A stretch of 64,000 nt of DNA, taken from assembly GCF_028993635.1 (NCBI RefSeq), contig NZ_CP118631.1, positions 3,038,001-3,102,000 on the forward strand, in the 5' to 3' direction. Source of the DNA: Mucilaginibacter sp. SJ. Lineage in GTDB: Bacteria; Bacteroidota; Bacteroidia; Sphingobacteriales; Sphingobacteriaceae. Positions 38,765 through 44,118 of this stretch are shown piece by piece (the first letter of the stretch is position 1; every line of letters starts with the position of its first letter). The notes under the pieces were generated by a model that had not been told where the DNA came from, ran no database searches, and saw only the letters and a list, made by a program, of their open reading frames with translations. A program made the translations under genes and the position numbers.

Positions 38765-40684
38765 TTAGAATTTATATCTCACAAACGCTTCCATAGCTTC
38801 GTATTCAGCCAAACCAAGGCGGTCATAACGTTGAGCAGTGTCGCGGGTGCGGTCTTCTGCACGTACCCAGAACTCCCTTGCATCATCACCAGGGAACACC
38901 GGAGTATCTTTTTGCGACTGGTGTTTGAAGATCGCATTTCGCTTCCTGATCACTTCCTGTGGCGACAATGGTACGGCCATTTCTATCTCATAAGTCTCAA
39001 ACTCATGCCATGCACCACGGTACATCCACAACCAGCAATCTTCTACCCAGGTTTCCTTGCCTTTTAATCGTTCTAATGCCGCTAAGATGATCTTGAAGCA
39101 TACCAGGTGGGTACCGTTGGGATCTGCAAAATCGCCCGCTGCAAAGATCTGCTGTGGTTTTACTTTCTGAAGCAGGTCGATGGTCAACTGGATATCTTCC
39201 TCACCTACCGAGTTCTTTTTGGTTTTACCGGTTTCGTAAAACGGCAGCGCCATAAAGTGGATATGGTCATCCTGTAAACCTGCATACCTTGCGCCTGAAA
39301 TCGCTTCTGTTTTCCTGATAAAGCCTTTTACGTTCCTGATCTCCTGGGTATCGATCTCGTTCGGCTGTTTGGTTGGAAAAAAGGTACGCATATCTTCATA
39401 GGATTTTTGAAGATGAGCAGTTTCTTCGCCGATGCTCTTTGTAAAGTCGATGGCAAATTCCATGTACCTCAAAACGTCGTCATCCCATACGGCGGTATTG
39501 CCGGATGTTTGGTAGGCCACGTGTACATCATGCCCCTGGTCTACCAAACGGATAAATGTACCCCCCATCGAAATCACATCATCATCGGGGTGCGGTGAAA
39601 AGATGATACTTCTCTTTTTGGCAGGCAACGCCCTTTCCGGTCTTTGCGAATCATCCGCATCCGGTTTACCGCCCGGCCAGCCGGTAATGGTATGCTGGAT
39701 CTGGTTAAAAATATCAATGTTGATATTATATACCGGGCCCTGCTCTACCGCAAGTTGGGCCATGCCGTGGTTATTATAATCTTCTTCTGTTAGTTTCAGT
39801 ACCGGTTTGTTAACCTCATTCGCCAACCAGATCACGGCCTTTTTCTTTAACCGGTTATCCCATACACAATCTTTCACCAGCCATGGGGTATCAAACCGGG
39901 TTAGTTCTGACGCTGCATCTGCATCCAGTACAAACTCTACATGTTGTGACAATTGCAGGTAGGTTGCAGGTACTTCGCCTGAGATCTCTCCTTCTACGGC
40001 TTTCTTGATGATCGGCGCTTTCTTCTTGTTCCAGGCCATCAATATGATTTCCCTGGCTTTGAAGATTGTGCCAATCCCCATGGTAATGGCCTTAGTTGGC
40101 ACATCAGCTTTACCACCGAAATCGCGGGCAGCGTCACGTCTGGTCAGGTCGTCAAGCGTTACCATCCTTGTGCCTGAGTTTGGTGCAGATCCCGGTTCGT
40201 TGAAGCCGATGTGACCTGTACGACCGATACCCAAGATTTGAAGGTCTAACCCGCCAAGTTCTTCTATCTGCTTTTCATAGGCTAAACAGAACGCAACAAC
40301 TTCGTCTTTATCCAAAGTACCATCAGGGATGTGAACATTGGCTTTATCGATATCTATATGGCTGAACAAGTTTTCGTACATGAAGGTTACATAGCTTTGC
40401 GCTGCTGTGGGTTTCATGGGGTAATACTCATCCAGATTGAAAGTGATCACATTCTTAAAGCTTAAGCCTGCTTCTTTGTGCTGCCTTACCAGTTCGGCAT
40501 ATACCCCTATCGGGGTTACACCGGTGGCAAGCCCTAATACCGCTTTTTCGCCTTTAGCTTGTTTCGCGCGGATCAGATCTGCTATCCGGTTCGCTACCGC
40601 TACCGAGGCTTCCTGTTGGTTGTTGTATACGCTTACCGGTAACTTCTCGTAACGTGTCTCTTCCAATAAATTTAATCGTGCCAT
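38765..40684 (-). CDS. nagB: glucosamine-6-phosphate deaminase fused to PIG-L/LmbE deacetylase
   Basis: 639 residues with two catalytic domains. Residues 1-265 form a NagB deaminase/isomerase (GlcN6P to Fru6P + ammonia): VITFNLDEYYPM with Asp near 81, GIGRTGHIGFNEPGS with His near 157 and Glu further on. Residues 355-600 form a PIG-L/LmbE-type zinc deacetylase: IIFSPHPDDDVISMGGTFIRL. The fusion is known in Bacteroidota. The position equivalent to E. coli Asp141 is threonine here (RTGH instead of NDGH), see findings. Cytosolic amino-sugar catabolism; the second domain could deacetylate GlcNAc-6-P. Upstream lies an attenuator-like leader. Confidence 0.92.
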   Translation of the reverse strand: MARLNLLEETRYEKLPVSVYNNQQEASVAVANRIADLIRAKQAKGEKAVLGLATGVTPIGVYAELVRQHKEAGLSFKNVITFNLDEYYPMKPTAAQSYVTFMYENLFSHIDIDKANVHIPDGTLDKDEVVAFCLAYEKQIEELGGLDLQILGIGRTGHIGFNEPGSAPNSGTRMVTLDDLTRRDAARDFGGKADVPTKAITMGIGTIFKAREIILMAWNKKKAPIIKKAVEGEISGEVPATYLQLSQHVEFVLDADAASELTRFDTPWLVKDCVWDNRLKKKAVIWLANEVNKPVLKLTEEDYNNHGMAQLAVEQGPVYNINIDIFNQIQHTITGWPGGKPDADDSQRPERALPAKKRSIIFSPHPDDDVISMGGTFIRLVDQGHDVHVAYQTSGNTAVWDDDVLRYMEFAIDFTKSIGEETAHLQKSYEDMRTFFPTKQPNEIDTQEIRNVKGFIRKTEAISGARYAGLQDDHIHFMALPFYETGKTKKNSVGEEDIQLTIDLLQKVKPQQIFAAGDFADPNGTHLVCFKIILAALERLKGKETWVEDCWLWMYRGAWHEFETYEIEMAVPLSPQEVIRKRNAIFKHQSQKDTPVFPGDDAREFWVRAEDRTRDTAQRYDRLGLAEYEAMEAFVRYKF

Positions 40685-40737
40685 AATTTGTTCAGAACCT
40701 ATATGTTATATGTTAATGTTTAAAAAAGTCGCTATAC

Positions 40738-40763
40738 AAAAAACCCCCGCCAAGGGCGAGGAT
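40738..40763 (-). terminator. leader terminator of nagB (candidate attenuator)
   Basis: Minus-strand stem CCTCGCC-CTT-GGCGGGG (7 bp, one GU), then six T (plus-strand A at 40738-40743), located 54 bp before the nagB ATG. The 5' arm (AUCCUCGCC, 40763-40755) can pair instead with GGUGAGGAU from 40801-40793, an antiterminator, while CCTCA (40810-40806) can sequester that strand. Confidence 0.65.
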
Positions 40764-40853
40764 TTTTATCAAACCAATTAACAAAAATGTTTATCCTCAC
40801 CGACATGAGGGTAAAGTAAAGTGCGTATAATAATATGCTGTGCATTATCAATA

Positions 40854-40861
40854 CAAACTTA
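40854..40861 (-). promoter_or_regulatory. -7 element of nagB leader
   Basis: TAAGTTTG on the minus strand matches TAnnTTTG exactly; predicted start near 40847, giving a leader of about 160 nt. No convincing -33 element. Confidence 0.4.
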
Positions 40862-41060
40862 CTAAAACAAAATTTGAATTAAAAGAACTTTTTAAATTTT
40901 TTTAATAAGTATTTTATCCGGGAAAGGATAGGATGGGGTTCATTTTGGCTAAAATTCACACATATTAGTGAAGCTTATCCTAAGTAATAGTAAGAATCCT
41001 CTTTTCTTTCGCATCGTGACTTACGAAAATCATCATTCCCCTGGCTCAATCAAAATCGGG

Positions 41061-41137: not shown

Positions 41138-41209
41138 TTCTTTGATTAATTTATTTTTCCGTTAGAGTCATATAATTTAACATCCCACTTAGACCCTCCC
41201 AAAAAAGGC

Positions 41210-41243
41210 AAAAGAGTTCCTGATGGGCAGGAATACTCTTTTT
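41210..41243. terminator. hairpin terminator (either direction)
   Basis: AAAAGAGTTCCTG / CAGGAA-TA-CTCTTTT, 13 paired bases with a 2-nt bulge and loop ATGGG, followed by T on plus and by CTCTTTTGCCTTTTTT on minus. Best candidate 3' end for the small RNA on the minus strand. Confidence 0.6.
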
Positions 41244-41283
41244 GCTAACCAATTATAAAACATAAATCATGAGATGAGAAGAG

Positions 41284-41366
41284 ATGCAGGGGTGGAATCG
41301 AACCATCCATTTGCTGCCGGCCAGCTCCTGCCATTTAGTTTAAAATGAACCCCGTTCGCAAACTAA
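41284..41366 (-). ncRNA. candidate small RNA with mini-tRNA-like fold
   Basis: On the minus strand: stem TTAGTTT/AAACTAA (7 bp; 41366-41360 with 41341-41335) with inner GAAC/GTTC; then an acceptor-like helix ATGGCAGG (41334-41327) with CCTGCAT (41290-41284), enclosing a GCTG/CAGC hairpin and a T-arm GATGG-TTCGATT-CCACC (41307-41291) with canonical TTCRANY loop. There is no normal D-arm or anticodon arm, so it is not an ordinary tRNA. A perfect -7 element is just upstream and a hairpin terminator downstream. Could equally be a decayed tRNA or integration remnant. Confidence 0.38.
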
Positions 41367-41373
41367 TCTGTTA

Positions 41374-41381
41374 CAAATATA
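41374..41381 (-). promoter_or_regulatory. -7 element upstream of candidate RNA
   Basis: TATATTTG on the minus strand, an exact TAnnTTTG match, 8 bp from the first paired base of the RNA. The -33 position is AT-rich without TTTG. Confidence 0.4.
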
Positions 41382-41556
41382 TAAATATTCTATTAAATCT
41401 ATATATTTAGTAGAATTTATTCATAAAAAATTCATCTTATTTATAAAACAAGTCTATTAAGTATTAAATATCACTGATAATCAAAATATTAACTCTAAGC
41501 TTCGTGCATTCTGCTTTAGCTTTCGTATAAAAACCCATTAATTACCGGGGCTATTA

Positions 41557-44118
41557 TCAGCGCGGGTCAGACTTATTAGAACAGATCTTTTCGAAGGGGA
41601 CCGGGTACTCTTCGCCTAATGACTTTTCATATTCAGCGCTAAACTCCTCATAAATTTTTCGGGCATGTTCAATGCCTTTGGTACGCCGCAGGGCTTTGAG
41701 TTTAAACTTAATGCCGATATCATTAAACGGATCGATATTCAGCACAATGCGCGAAATCTCCAGCGCTTTTTTATAATCAAAGGCATCGTAAGCTTTTTTT
41801 ATTACCGGCAAAATAACCGGCATCAGCACCTCTTCATACTCCTGCTTAAAATCATCAAGCCAAATTTCAGGGATTTGCTGCAACAGCCCGCCACGGGCAA
41901 CTAAGTCGAGGTAACTGAACGCGGAAGGTTCACCAACATTAGTTTGTTTAAGTGCTTCCCTCACCACAAAATAATCGCAATAAAAATGTTCGGTGCTGAT
42001 AAAACTATAGGTATCGTTTAAAAAAGCAAGTTCCAGGCCATCTATATCCGAAAGGATGTTACGAAGGTGATTGATGGTTACACCGCGAATATTCTTAGTT
42101 TTGACTACATCCTTATCCGGCCATAGTGTAGTGGAGATTTTTTTTGATACCACACCGTTCTTTTCGCGACTGTTCAACAAAATAAGGATAAACAGCTGCT
42201 TGATCTTGGGACTAAACAGGTAAGTAATATCCCGCTTATTTTTATCATAAACAGTGAACTCGCCAAGGAGGTAAACAGCGTTGGCCTTGTTGCCTATTTC
42301 AGGTTCTATTTTTTGTTCGGCAAAACGCTCTTCGTTAACAGCAGCAGGTTCATCGTTATCCTTTTTCCGCCTTAAGAAAAATACAACAATTCCGTATAAC
42401 AACACAAATGCAGACGCGCCACCCAATATCCTGTATAAAGTAAAAGATTTGCTTTTGGGTTGGTGGGCGGCCACAAATGCCTCCTGGCTCACAGGCGGCG
42501 CGGTAAGTGCGAAGATTTTTATGGTAGACCGGGATGGTGTTTCAAACTCCTGGGTAGTGCAGTAAAATACATCCTGCCCGGCATTATAAAACAGGTTATG
42601 GTCAGTTTCTATCCGTTCGGACACAACCGGGATGGTACCGCTTACTACCTGGTACGAACCATCTTTTATTGAAAATTTGTACAGACGCAAACTGGTTTTA
42701 GGCCGTTCATGCGGATAGCATAGCACATAAAAAAACTGCTTATCTTTGGATACAATGAGATTATTGGCTGGTACAAATGCTTCTTCATCCGGTTTGATCT
42801 CCCAGAGCTTTTTAATGCTATGCTTATCCAGGTTAACCCGGTACAGGTCATAATAGTGCATCCCGCCTACTACCTGGTTGCCCGACTGGTTGCCGTAGCC
42901 GCCAAAAATGTAAACATCATTGTTTTGATCAGCTGTACTTGCTGCCGAAAAAAACCGGGGGTTGATCACATCGCCAGTAAAACTTTGTTGCTGCCAGGTA
43001 TCTGCGGCTTTATCATATTTAAAAAAGTTATTATAGTATTTAAAAGAGCCGTACCCGCCAAAAAGGTAAAAGTTGTTAAAGTCCTTATCGTAAAAAATAT
43101 TATGATGATGCCTTTGCTCCGTTATGGTCGCCTTACCATAAAAATCCCAGCTAAGGCTGTCCAGGCTAAAAGCAGCGATACTTGGAGCAGGTTGTGGGGC
43201 CTTGAGCACTTCATACAAATAACATTCATTCTCCTTAAGGTTTACGATACTTTTGCCCAGGTGCAAAGGCACTGCCAGTTTATTTTTGAATGGTTTTGTT
43301 CCTACTGCATCCCGCCCGGCATCATAAAACATCAGGGAATCACTTTTGAAGATAAAGAACTGTTCATTTCTTTCATTAAAGTTGATCCCTGCAACCTCGT
43401 TAAAAGTATGCACGAACTTCTGTTTCCAAAAGTATGATTCGTTGATAAGCCATGCCGGGTTATCAACATGCCCCAGGTTATCTCCCTCAACCGTAAAAAC
43501 ATCATTGCCGGTCCATTCACTAAGCAGAAAGGTATAGGTTTTATCATCGTTGCTGACAACCAGGTTTTTAATGGCCATATTCGGCACATCCGAATAATGT
43601 TCGTTTTTGCCAAAGGTGATCTTCGCGGTTAATTTACCGTTAAAACCCAATCCTGTAGCCCGGTGCCATTTTCCGTTTACGGAAATGCCTACTTTATCAC
43701 CTTTGAGATCAAGATCAACTATCACCTTAAACCATTTACGCCGTTTCAGCATAGTATCGGCAAGGGGGATGCTGAGCTTATTACTCCGGCTATCAATATT
43801 GAAGTTGAGGAACGAGCCATGATTGTAAATCGCACTCAGGCTGTAGGAGTTACCCTTATCATCGGTTAAGTTTAAAATATAGCCAAGGTGCTGATTATCC
43901 CACAATGAAAGGTCGAAACCAATGACCAGGTGATCATGAAAGGTTGGCAGATCATCCTTAAAAACCTGGTAAGAGGTGCGCTTGCTCATCAGGCTGTCAT
44001 TTGAACCAAACTGCAACCCCTGCCCCCTGCTCTCAGTTGCAGACAGCAGTATAATAAAAAGCAATACAAGCTTACATGCCCTTTTTGAAAGCATTAAAAC
44101 CTTACTTTTTTCCACCAT
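41557..44118 (-). CDS. membrane-spanning LamG/Kelch transcriptional regulator (SARP-like output)
   Basis: 853 residues. Signal or first membrane segment at about 10-30 (ACKLVLLFIILLSATESRGQ); then a LamG-like jellyroll (about 35-205: VIGFDLSLWDN, FKVIVDLDLKGDKVGISVNGKWH); then Kelch-type repeats (about 335-545: NFYLFGGYGSFKYYNNFFKYD, DVYIFGGYGNQSGN); a second membrane helix (about 560-585: ILGGASAFVLLYGIVVFFLRRKK); and a cytosolic winged-helix DNA-binding domain (about 618-700: VYLLGEFTVYDKNKRDITYLFSPKIKQ) with a BTAD-like helical end (about 720-845). Read as a one-component sensor: extracytoplasmic ligand, cytosolic DNA binding. Diverges from a TolC-MacAB operon, its likely target. Confidence 0.8.
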   Translation of the reverse strand: MVEKSKVLMLSKRACKLVLLFIILLSATESRGQGLQFGSNDSLMSKRTSYQVFKDDLPTFHDHLVIGFDLSLWDNQHLGYILNLTDDKGNSYSLSAIYNHGSFLNFNIDSRSNKLSIPLADTMLKRRKWFKVIVDLDLKGDKVGISVNGKWHRATGLGFNGKLTAKITFGKNEHYSDVPNMAIKNLVVSNDDKTYTFLLSEWTGNDVFTVEGDNLGHVDNPAWLINESYFWKQKFVHTFNEVAGINFNERNEQFFIFKSDSLMFYDAGRDAVGTKPFKNKLAVPLHLGKSIVNLKENECYLYEVLKAPQPAPSIAAFSLDSLSWDFYGKATITEQRHHHNIFYDKDFNNFYLFGGYGSFKYYNNFFKYDKAADTWQQQSFTGDVINPRFFSAASTADQNNDVYIFGGYGNQSGNQVVGGMHYYDLYRVNLDKHSIKKLWEIKPDEEAFVPANNLIVSKDKQFFYVLCYPHERPKTSLRLYKFSIKDGSYQVVSGTIPVVSERIETDHNLFYNAGQDVFYCTTQEFETPSRSTIKIFALTAPPVSQEAFVAAHQPKSKSFTLYRILGGASAFVLLYGIVVFFLRRKKDNDEPAAVNEERFAEQKIEPEIGNKANAVYLLGEFTVYDKNKRDITYLFSPKIKQLFILILLNSREKNGVVSKKISTTLWPDKDVVKTKNIRGVTINHLRNILSDIDGLELAFLNDTYSFISTEHFYCDYFVVREALKQTNVGEPSAFSYLDLVARGGLLQQIPEIWLDDFKQEYEEVLMPVILPVIKKAYDAFDYKKALEISRIVLNIDPFNDIGIKFKLKALRRTKGIEHARKIYEEFSAEYEKSLGEEYPVPFEKICSNKSDPR

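Follow-up and report, generated by a model that had tools for sequence, protein, structure and literature searches.

Leader-peptide attenuation of transcription is best known from genes of amino-acid biosynthesis and of the antibiotic response. Attenuators of the trp, his and phe type follow a 1:2, 2:3, 3:4 arrangement of pairing strands, in which the position of the ribosome decides the outcome. In Bacteroidota, mRNAs do without Shine-Dalgarno sequences. Within this phylum, leader-peptide attenuators have been suggested 5' of amino-acid biosynthesis operons of Flavobacterium psychrophilum, a species for which the promoter consensus TAnnTTTG at -12 to -5 is also described (excerpts of PMC9723704). 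In the bmrB leader of Bacillus subtilis bmrCD, removal of the start lowers read-through, and translation is needed for efficient read-through (excerpts of PMC4191407). Bacteroides thetaiotaomicron possesses GibS, a GlcNAc-induced small RNA (sRNA) of 145 nt which is intergenic and trans-acting (excerpts of PMC7366714). The literature that we searched, which took in few subscription journals, yielded no account of any leader peptide or riboswitch for the nagB of Bacteroidota, and excerpts of two papers mention nagB only in other contexts.

Our analysis concerns a window, that is, the whole stretch of 64,000 nt analyzed from Mucilaginibacter sp. SJ (NZ_CP118631.1, positions 3,038,001 to 3,102,000), which is part of a single 6.8-Mb contig. 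We consider it fairly probable, from sequence comparison and folding, that its nagB-deacetylase gene, which serves the breakdown of the amino sugar GlcNAc in these soil bacteria, is preceded by a ribosome-mediated (leader-peptide) transcription attenuator acting on that gene, under probable GlcNAc-regulon control. In window coordinates, its features are the following.

40887 to 40910, minus strand: palindromic operator-like box ACTTATTAAAAAAATTTAAAAAGT, probable site of a GlcNAc-regulon regulator
40854 to 40861, minus strand: TAAGTTTG, Bacteroidota sigma-A -7 element, from the sequence and the TAnnTTTG consensus
40849, minus strand: predicted transcription start (+1), from the -12/-5 rule
40732 to 40845, minus strand: leader ORF of 37 codons plus stop, MHSILLYALYFTLMSVRINIFVNWFDKNPRPWRGFFV, with its ATG at about +5, crossing P1 and the terminator
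40790 to 40815, minus strand: P1 hairpin (1:2, "anti-antiterminator") within the leader ORF, from covariation, RNAalifold and single-sequence folds
40810 to 40805 with 40800 to 40795, minus strand: P1 core, CCTCAT with GTGAGG
40810 to 40806, minus strand: CCTCA, read from the sequence
40801 to 40793, minus strand: strand 2, GGTGAGGAT, of the alternative (antiterminator) pairing, from sequence, pairing counts and duplex energy
40772 to 40782, minus strand: GTTAATTGGTT, the most conserved linear stretch, directly 5' of the terminator; V-N-W codons of the window ORF
40738 to 40766, minus strand: intrinsic terminator (stem-loop plus six T), with 99.5% of cells paired in 19 leaders
40763 to 40755, minus strand: strand 3, ATCCTCGCC, which pairs with strand 2 and is also the terminator 5' arm
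40754 to 40752, minus strand: terminator loop CTT
40751 to 40744, minus strand: terminator 3' arm GGCGGGGG
40743 to 40738, minus strand: the six T of the terminator
38765 to 40684, minus strand: nagB-PIG-L fusion gene, with Pfam Glucosamine_iso and GlcNAc-PI de-N-acetylase (PIG-L) domains

By analogy of layout, bmrB of B. subtilis is the closest working model: both leaders combine a short ORF, a terminator placed inside that ORF (here, in the case of the window) and a predicted antiterminator and anti-antiterminator, although bmrB belongs to a Gram-positive bacterium, controls a drug exporter and reacts to antibiotics that target the ribosome (excerpts of PMC4191407). The F. psychrophilum attenuators share with the nagB leader the phylum, a leader peptide and a structured 5' region, but they concern amino-acid biosynthesis operons, and nagB is not mentioned in the excerpts of that paper (PMC9723704). 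GibS resembles the layout of the terminated leader in its size, hairpin, linear part, terminator and link to GlcNAc, whereas the leader stays with nagB and contains an ORF (excerpts of PMC7366714). With the trp, his and phe type the leader has in common the predicted 1:2, 2:3, 3:4 arrangement and a P1 which overlaps the ORF; unlike them, it precedes amino-sugar catabolism instead of amino-acid synthesis, and none of the leader peptides contains the run of one amino acid's codons that marks attenuators of this type. The best match to the leader in Rfam is a weak one to Phe_leader (RF01859), at 27 bits against a cut-off of 55, and Leu_leader (RF00512) also matches below threshold. Since the leader is thus a member of no Rfam family, we describe it as predicted to work like a ribosome-mediated attenuator.

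In the window, the terminator, the 9-bp alternative pairing, the 5' hairpin and the TAAGTTTG box lie where a preliminary description of this DNA had placed them. The pairing between strand 2 and strand 3 includes one G-U, and their duplex (-12.4 kcal/mol) exceeds that of shuffles in strength by 4 to 5 SD; folding of the 109-nt leader gives a z score of -2.95, with 1 of 200 shuffles equally stable. The T run is followed, after 53 nt, by the nagB ATG, which begins at 40684. The preliminary description would fall with a transcription start downstream of 40738, but such a start is unlikely, because the spacing between operator and -7 element is conserved upstream of the leader and no TAnnTTTG occurs between the terminator and the nagB ATG in the window.

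In the best segment, the protein encoded by the window gene shares 97 to 98% identity with its counterparts in M. kameinonensis, M. endophyticus, Mucilaginibacter sp. SMC90 and M. gossypiicola. From 315 relatives found for the gene, 80 were kept, and the upstream comparison left out seven loci with less than 150 nt upstream; among the loci listed, many relatives have a homologous leader composed of promoter, variable 5' part, hairpin, GTTAATTGGTT and terminator. A covariance model of P1 and the terminator, built on 19 aligned leaders (alignment A1), has one clear match in the genome of strain SJ, at 112 bits, followed by the next at 29 bits. Matches were obtained in 106 of 149 genomes of the genus at E values up to 0.1, and in 86 of the 117 genomes of good quality. 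The 90 matched loci that were fetched comprise those down to an E value of 2.2e-4 and two weaker ones, the remainder up to 0.1 being left out. Directly 5' of a nagB-deacetylase gene lie 86 of these 90 (85 by tblastn and one more at a contig end). The other four are weaker matches which resemble plain terminators after other genes (L190, L191, L193 and L194; 42.8 to 46.1 bits); they were left out, as lacking nagB, when the 86 loci were given to the model.

The search beyond the genus covered 30 nagB loci, six of which proved to be from Mucilaginibacter or the window itself. A leader from Hufsiella arboris (L219, the same as L066) has the box and the terminator, but, by eye, an ORF of only 8 codons. 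In the other 23 loci, no attenuator-type leader was seen by eye within 300 nt upstream; three of them (L236, L238 and L239) have a box-like palindrome close to the promoter. On these sequences, the leader unit seems to be absent outside Mucilaginibacter.

Comparison of related leaders had been proposed in the preliminary description as the check on its three mutually exclusive helices. In the 19 aligned leaders, P1 is paired in 89.3% of cells, against 73.2% in shuffles, with a covariation of 0.642 against 0.381 and changes on both sides at 5 of its 6 pairs, and the terminator is paired in 99.5% of cells, against 97.8%. The 9-bp antiterminator, however, is paired in 77.8% of cells against 77.3% in shuffles, and its covariation score (0.185 against 0.180) gives no covariation in that register across these leaders. 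Two of the three helices are therefore conserved, and lack of covariation, named in the preliminary description as a refuting outcome, is seen for the 9-bp antiterminator and not for P1. RNAalifold, run without structure input, likewise returns P1 and the terminator, with the antiterminator absent, and in leader L024 the two-sided change which keeps a P1 pair is the same that breaks an antiterminator pair. From the counts for the named structures and the conflict in L024, it follows that the picture of three helices is valid for the window and for its close relatives, while elsewhere the antiterminator register is not kept. By clade, the duplex of strands 2 and 3 gives mixed results, with weak pairing in clade 1b (mean z -0.4) and in clade 3 (-1.1).

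Outside P1, the terminator and GTTAATTGGTT, the leader is variable between clades. As for GTTAATTGGTT, we rejected its reading as a general pre-terminator element, since it precedes 1 of the 8 terminators that our script found in the window. Over all loci, TTGGTT lies 5' of 24 of 99 terminators, against 3.9 in shuffles; it is present in 71 of 79 nagB leaders, and the excess before terminators is probably due mostly to these.

The leader ORF, absent from the preliminary description, was defined as an ATG frame of at least 16 codons which ends within 25 nt of the terminator or runs through it. The set scored comprises 79 distinct leaders, four duplicates having been dropped and three leaders left out as failing the terminator pattern, although their terminator is visible by eye. 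Such an ORF, spanning the hairpin region, is present in 77 of the 79, against a mean of 19 and a maximum of 26 in 40 rounds of dinucleotide shuffles, a count which, like the others over these leaders, is not one of independent cases, as the leaders are related to one another. The 77 ORFs have 21 to 62 codons and end at most 24 nt from the terminator stem or run through: 33 stop 1 to 10 nt before the stem, 26 stop 11 to 18 nt before it, three further away, and 15 run through. The two leaders without an ATG ORF are L151, which has a GTG at the same place, and L192, which has none. The ATG lies at most 12 nt from the -7 box in 65 of 79 leaders, against 4 (maximum 8) in shuffled leaders; when the true start was kept and the remainder shuffled, the expectation was 15.8 (maximum 25) against the 65 observed.

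Because the stop-free frame 0 in our codon comparison (33/33, 20/20 and 10/10) follows in part from the selection of the ORFs, the unbiased frame counts are those from leaders grouped by nucleotides regardless of openness, in which frame 0, counted from the first ATG, is open in 39 of 41 leaders of clade 1 (other frames, 2 and 9) and in 24 of 24 of clade 2 (other frames, 2 and 8). Insertions and deletions in the ORF keep the frame: the distance from start to hairpin is divisible by 3 in 38 of 41 clade 1 segments, two of the three exceptions having a second, in-frame ATG, and that from start to TCA in 21 of 22 anchorable clade 2 segments. In the codon comparison, from which six odd ORFs (L136, L163, L174, L184, L188 and L189) and L164 were left out, differing codons in frame 0 score +0.86/+0.47/+0.18 by BLOSUM, and those in the other frames score below 0. 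The excess of synonymous changes is weak in a strict test of the synonymous rate (1.22, 1.22 and 0.81), so that what seems to be selected is that the frame is present, together with some positions, rather than the entire peptide. The peptides of the three main clades, containing ...LYFSLMSVR... in clade 1, ...SLKYAYFLSSLRDLNFIVNWL in clade 2 and ...LLIVSPVMWNNLIVKLV-stop in clade 3, are different and partly alignable, with strong change between clades and at the C terminus. A non-coding reading of the ORF, suggested by a few substitutions in the sister species of the window, was overturned by the wider set of leaders. Nascent-peptide arrest at a stop codon, of which TnaC is an example, was rejected too, as KLV-stop is found only in part of clade 1 and in clade 3 and the stop positions differ.

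The effect of a ribosome on the competing pairings was modeled in silico by folding each leader up to the terminator 5' arm while a ribosome footprint of 31 nt was masked, codon after codon (the long leaders, namely, those of clade 3, L184, L188 and L189, being folded only from 8 nt before the ORF). The antiterminator pairing is higher with codons 8 to 13 in the A site than with codons 15 to 19, and within these two ranges the terminator 5' arm is in most cases paired to upstream RNA most strongly at codon 11. This difference has a mean of 0.42, against 0.125 when the upstream parts were dinucleotide shuffled, and it exceeds the mean of the leader's own shuffles in 74 of 77 leaders; the P value of this comparison should not be read literally, as the leaders are related to one another and P1 is destroyed by the shuffling. 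On this folding model, the footprint result is the geometry of a trp-type attenuator, with different base-pair registers per clade. Other folding results fit a simple switch badly: in the window subgroup the antiterminator is favored also in ribosome-free RNA as long as the terminator is incomplete (0.97 to 1.0); among the 19 leaders displayed, the complete terminator mostly wins at equilibrium except when the ribosome occupies it; and L126 and L134 are leaders in which it loses even when no ribosome is present. A kinetic switch would therefore have to be assumed. At the critical place, most leaders of clades 1 and 2 have a Tyr or Phe codon (an aromatic residue in 29 of 33 and 15 of 20 peptides, respectively) but hardly any of clade 3, in which codon 10 encodes Leu (9 of 10) or Phe and codon 11 encodes Ile or Val, i.e., an aromatic residue in one of ten peptides at codon 10 and in none at codon 11.

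Upstream of the leader, the palindromic box and the -7 element are 49 or 50 bp apart in 76 of the 79 leaders measured, with one at 48 bp and two outside the pattern; six of 85 loci failed the motif pattern and have no distance. The box, ACTTWTTAAANNNNTTTAAWAAGT, has 13 sites at up to two mismatches in the genome (contig G000:C1; L086 to L098), against 0 for the reversed pattern, and none of the sites lies within an ORF of more than 150 aa in the 3-kb loci. Ten proteins were scanned beside nine of the twelve other sites (L091, L094 and L097 being without a neighbor scan): three GH20 hexosaminidases, whose genes the box precedes, an MFS transporter, a polysaccharide deacetylase, an AMP-binding acetyl-CoA synthetase-like enzyme, an alpha-L-fucosidase, an FAD-linked oxidase, an AI-2E-family transporter and a protein that matches no Pfam family. 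Judging from these neighbor genes, the box marks a probable GlcNAc/chitin amino-sugar regulon. Several of the other sites differ in that the box, by eye, seems to adjoin the -7 region directly, in contrast to the 49 bp at leaders.

The attenuator reading is supported by sequence comparison and folding, which give the conserved ORF, the covarying P1, the conserved terminator, the linkage to nagB and the dependence of the competing pairing on ribosome position; we infer translation itself, the antitermination step, GlcNAc as the inducer of the promoter and a signal that slows the ribosome. In the proposed mechanism, an amino-sugar-responsive regulator at the palindromic box would drive transcription of the leader, the AUG of which, in 65 of 79 leaders, would coincide with the predicted start of the RNA or follow it by a few nt, and a ribosome would translate the short ORF behind the polymerase. 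Lingering with codons about 9 to 12 in the A site, the ribosome would cover the 5' arm of P1, the 3' arm could then pair with the terminator 5' arm, and transcription would proceed into nagB. With the ribosome at codons about 13 to 23, the 3' arm of P1 would be covered and the terminator would form, and without a ribosome P1 and the terminator would be expected.

The open frame and the terminator also admit another reading, in which the terminator is constant and unregulated, the ORF is a small-protein gene sharing the nagB promoter, and the terminator sets the ratio of small-protein to full-length mRNA. An ORF open in nearly all leaders, conservative differing codons and a complete terminator predicted to win in most leaders displayed unless a ribosome is on top of it would suit such a gene, but the peptide changes strongly between clades and at its C terminus, the synonymous excess is weak, and neither covariation of P1 inside the ORF nor a ribosome-position effect above shuffles would be needed; we hold this reading to be unlikely. 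The frame also bears on a metabolite riboswitch, responding, e.g., to GlcN6P or GlcNAc6P. The preliminary description had left the choice between attenuator and riboswitch open on account of the mutually exclusive helices in the window sequence, and of these halves the attenuator has gained support. Of Rfam riboswitches, including the glmS ribozyme, none scored above the gathering threshold, the only matches in the 64 kb being to rRNA; across clades no conserved aptamer-like core was seen by eye, and the conserved reading frame spans the entire putative sensor. With an open frame and no visible conserved core, we rejected the riboswitch, to which we grant very little probability.

Two further readings were considered. 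If the terminated leader, of about 110 nt in the window, were a trans-acting small RNA like GibS, nagB would be transcribed by read-through; its size, hairpin, linear stretch and terminator are indeed like the published layout of GibS (excerpts of PMC7366714), and its promoter box is common to hexosaminidase genes. The fetched matches away from nagB, however, are only four, which look like plain terminators, the strain's own genome has one clear copy, and the 5' part, in which a seed would be expected, differs between clades yet keeps an open frame. A free small RNA was rejected as the main reading because the fetched matches of the model stay with nagB (86 of 90 directly 5' of it) instead of forming a free-standing unit, and we regard it as quite improbable. 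Alternatively, translation of the short ORF could feed ribosomes to nagB by reinitiation, an increase in the expression of downstream genes having been proposed as an effect of short leader genes (excerpts of PMC4833913); against this stand the terminator between the promoter and nagB in the leaders, which our parsing required, and the gap from terminator to ATG, which in the leaders measured ranges between 27 and 196 nt, and reinitiation appears to us highly unlikely. A site for an RNA-binding protein of the RbpB type was discarded, the excerpts of the RbpB paper (PMC11697453) containing no matching motif.

Returning to the leader-peptide attenuator, we tentatively suggest, as a possibility that the evidence leaves short of probable, that this almost leaderless attenuator joins two inputs, namely, a GlcNAc-regulon operator and the speed of the ribosome over the position marked by Tyr or Phe, or over any codon there. 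If so, the operator would decide on synthesis of the leader and ribosome speed on the entry of the polymerase into nagB, and sugar breakdown would be tied to translation or to amino-acid status. Across a genus, an enzyme of sugar catabolism seems to be guarded by this design, with the AUG near the predicted RNA start in most species, and the locus would offer a compact and testable case of transcription-translation coupling in Bacteroidota, together with a predicted GlcNAc regulon and its operator.

Some further observations concern the surroundings of the gene. A second copy of nagB-deacetylase in the same genome (L002, G000:C1:4228744-4230660), the protein of which is 97% identical, has a plain short promoter without an attenuator-type leader. 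In several related assemblies the contig breaks directly 3' of the leader, as is to be expected if two nagB copies are near-identical repeats. In some Mucilaginibacter (L022, L028, L037, L039 and L054 to L056) nagB-deacetylase lies 3' of a gene that, by eye, looks like one of the susD type, with a terminator in between. The adjoining protein of 853 aa in the window (41557 to 44118, minus strand) matches kelch and beta-propeller models only; its C-terminal part we take, by eye, to look like a DNA-binding activator. Between this gene and the leader, at 41208 to 41395 on the minus strand, there is a second RNA-like unit with a promoter-like box TATATTTG, a segment resembling a tRNA T arm, GGATGGTTCGATTCCACCC, a pyrimidine stretch TCTCTTCTC, and then TTTATAATTGGTTAG and a terminator. 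ARAGORN detected no tRNA in it, and no Rfam family matched it at E values up to 1. The unit is conserved in several clade 1 relatives and has a diverged copy in the strain's own genome (L101), and some of its matches across the genus may be true tRNA genes.
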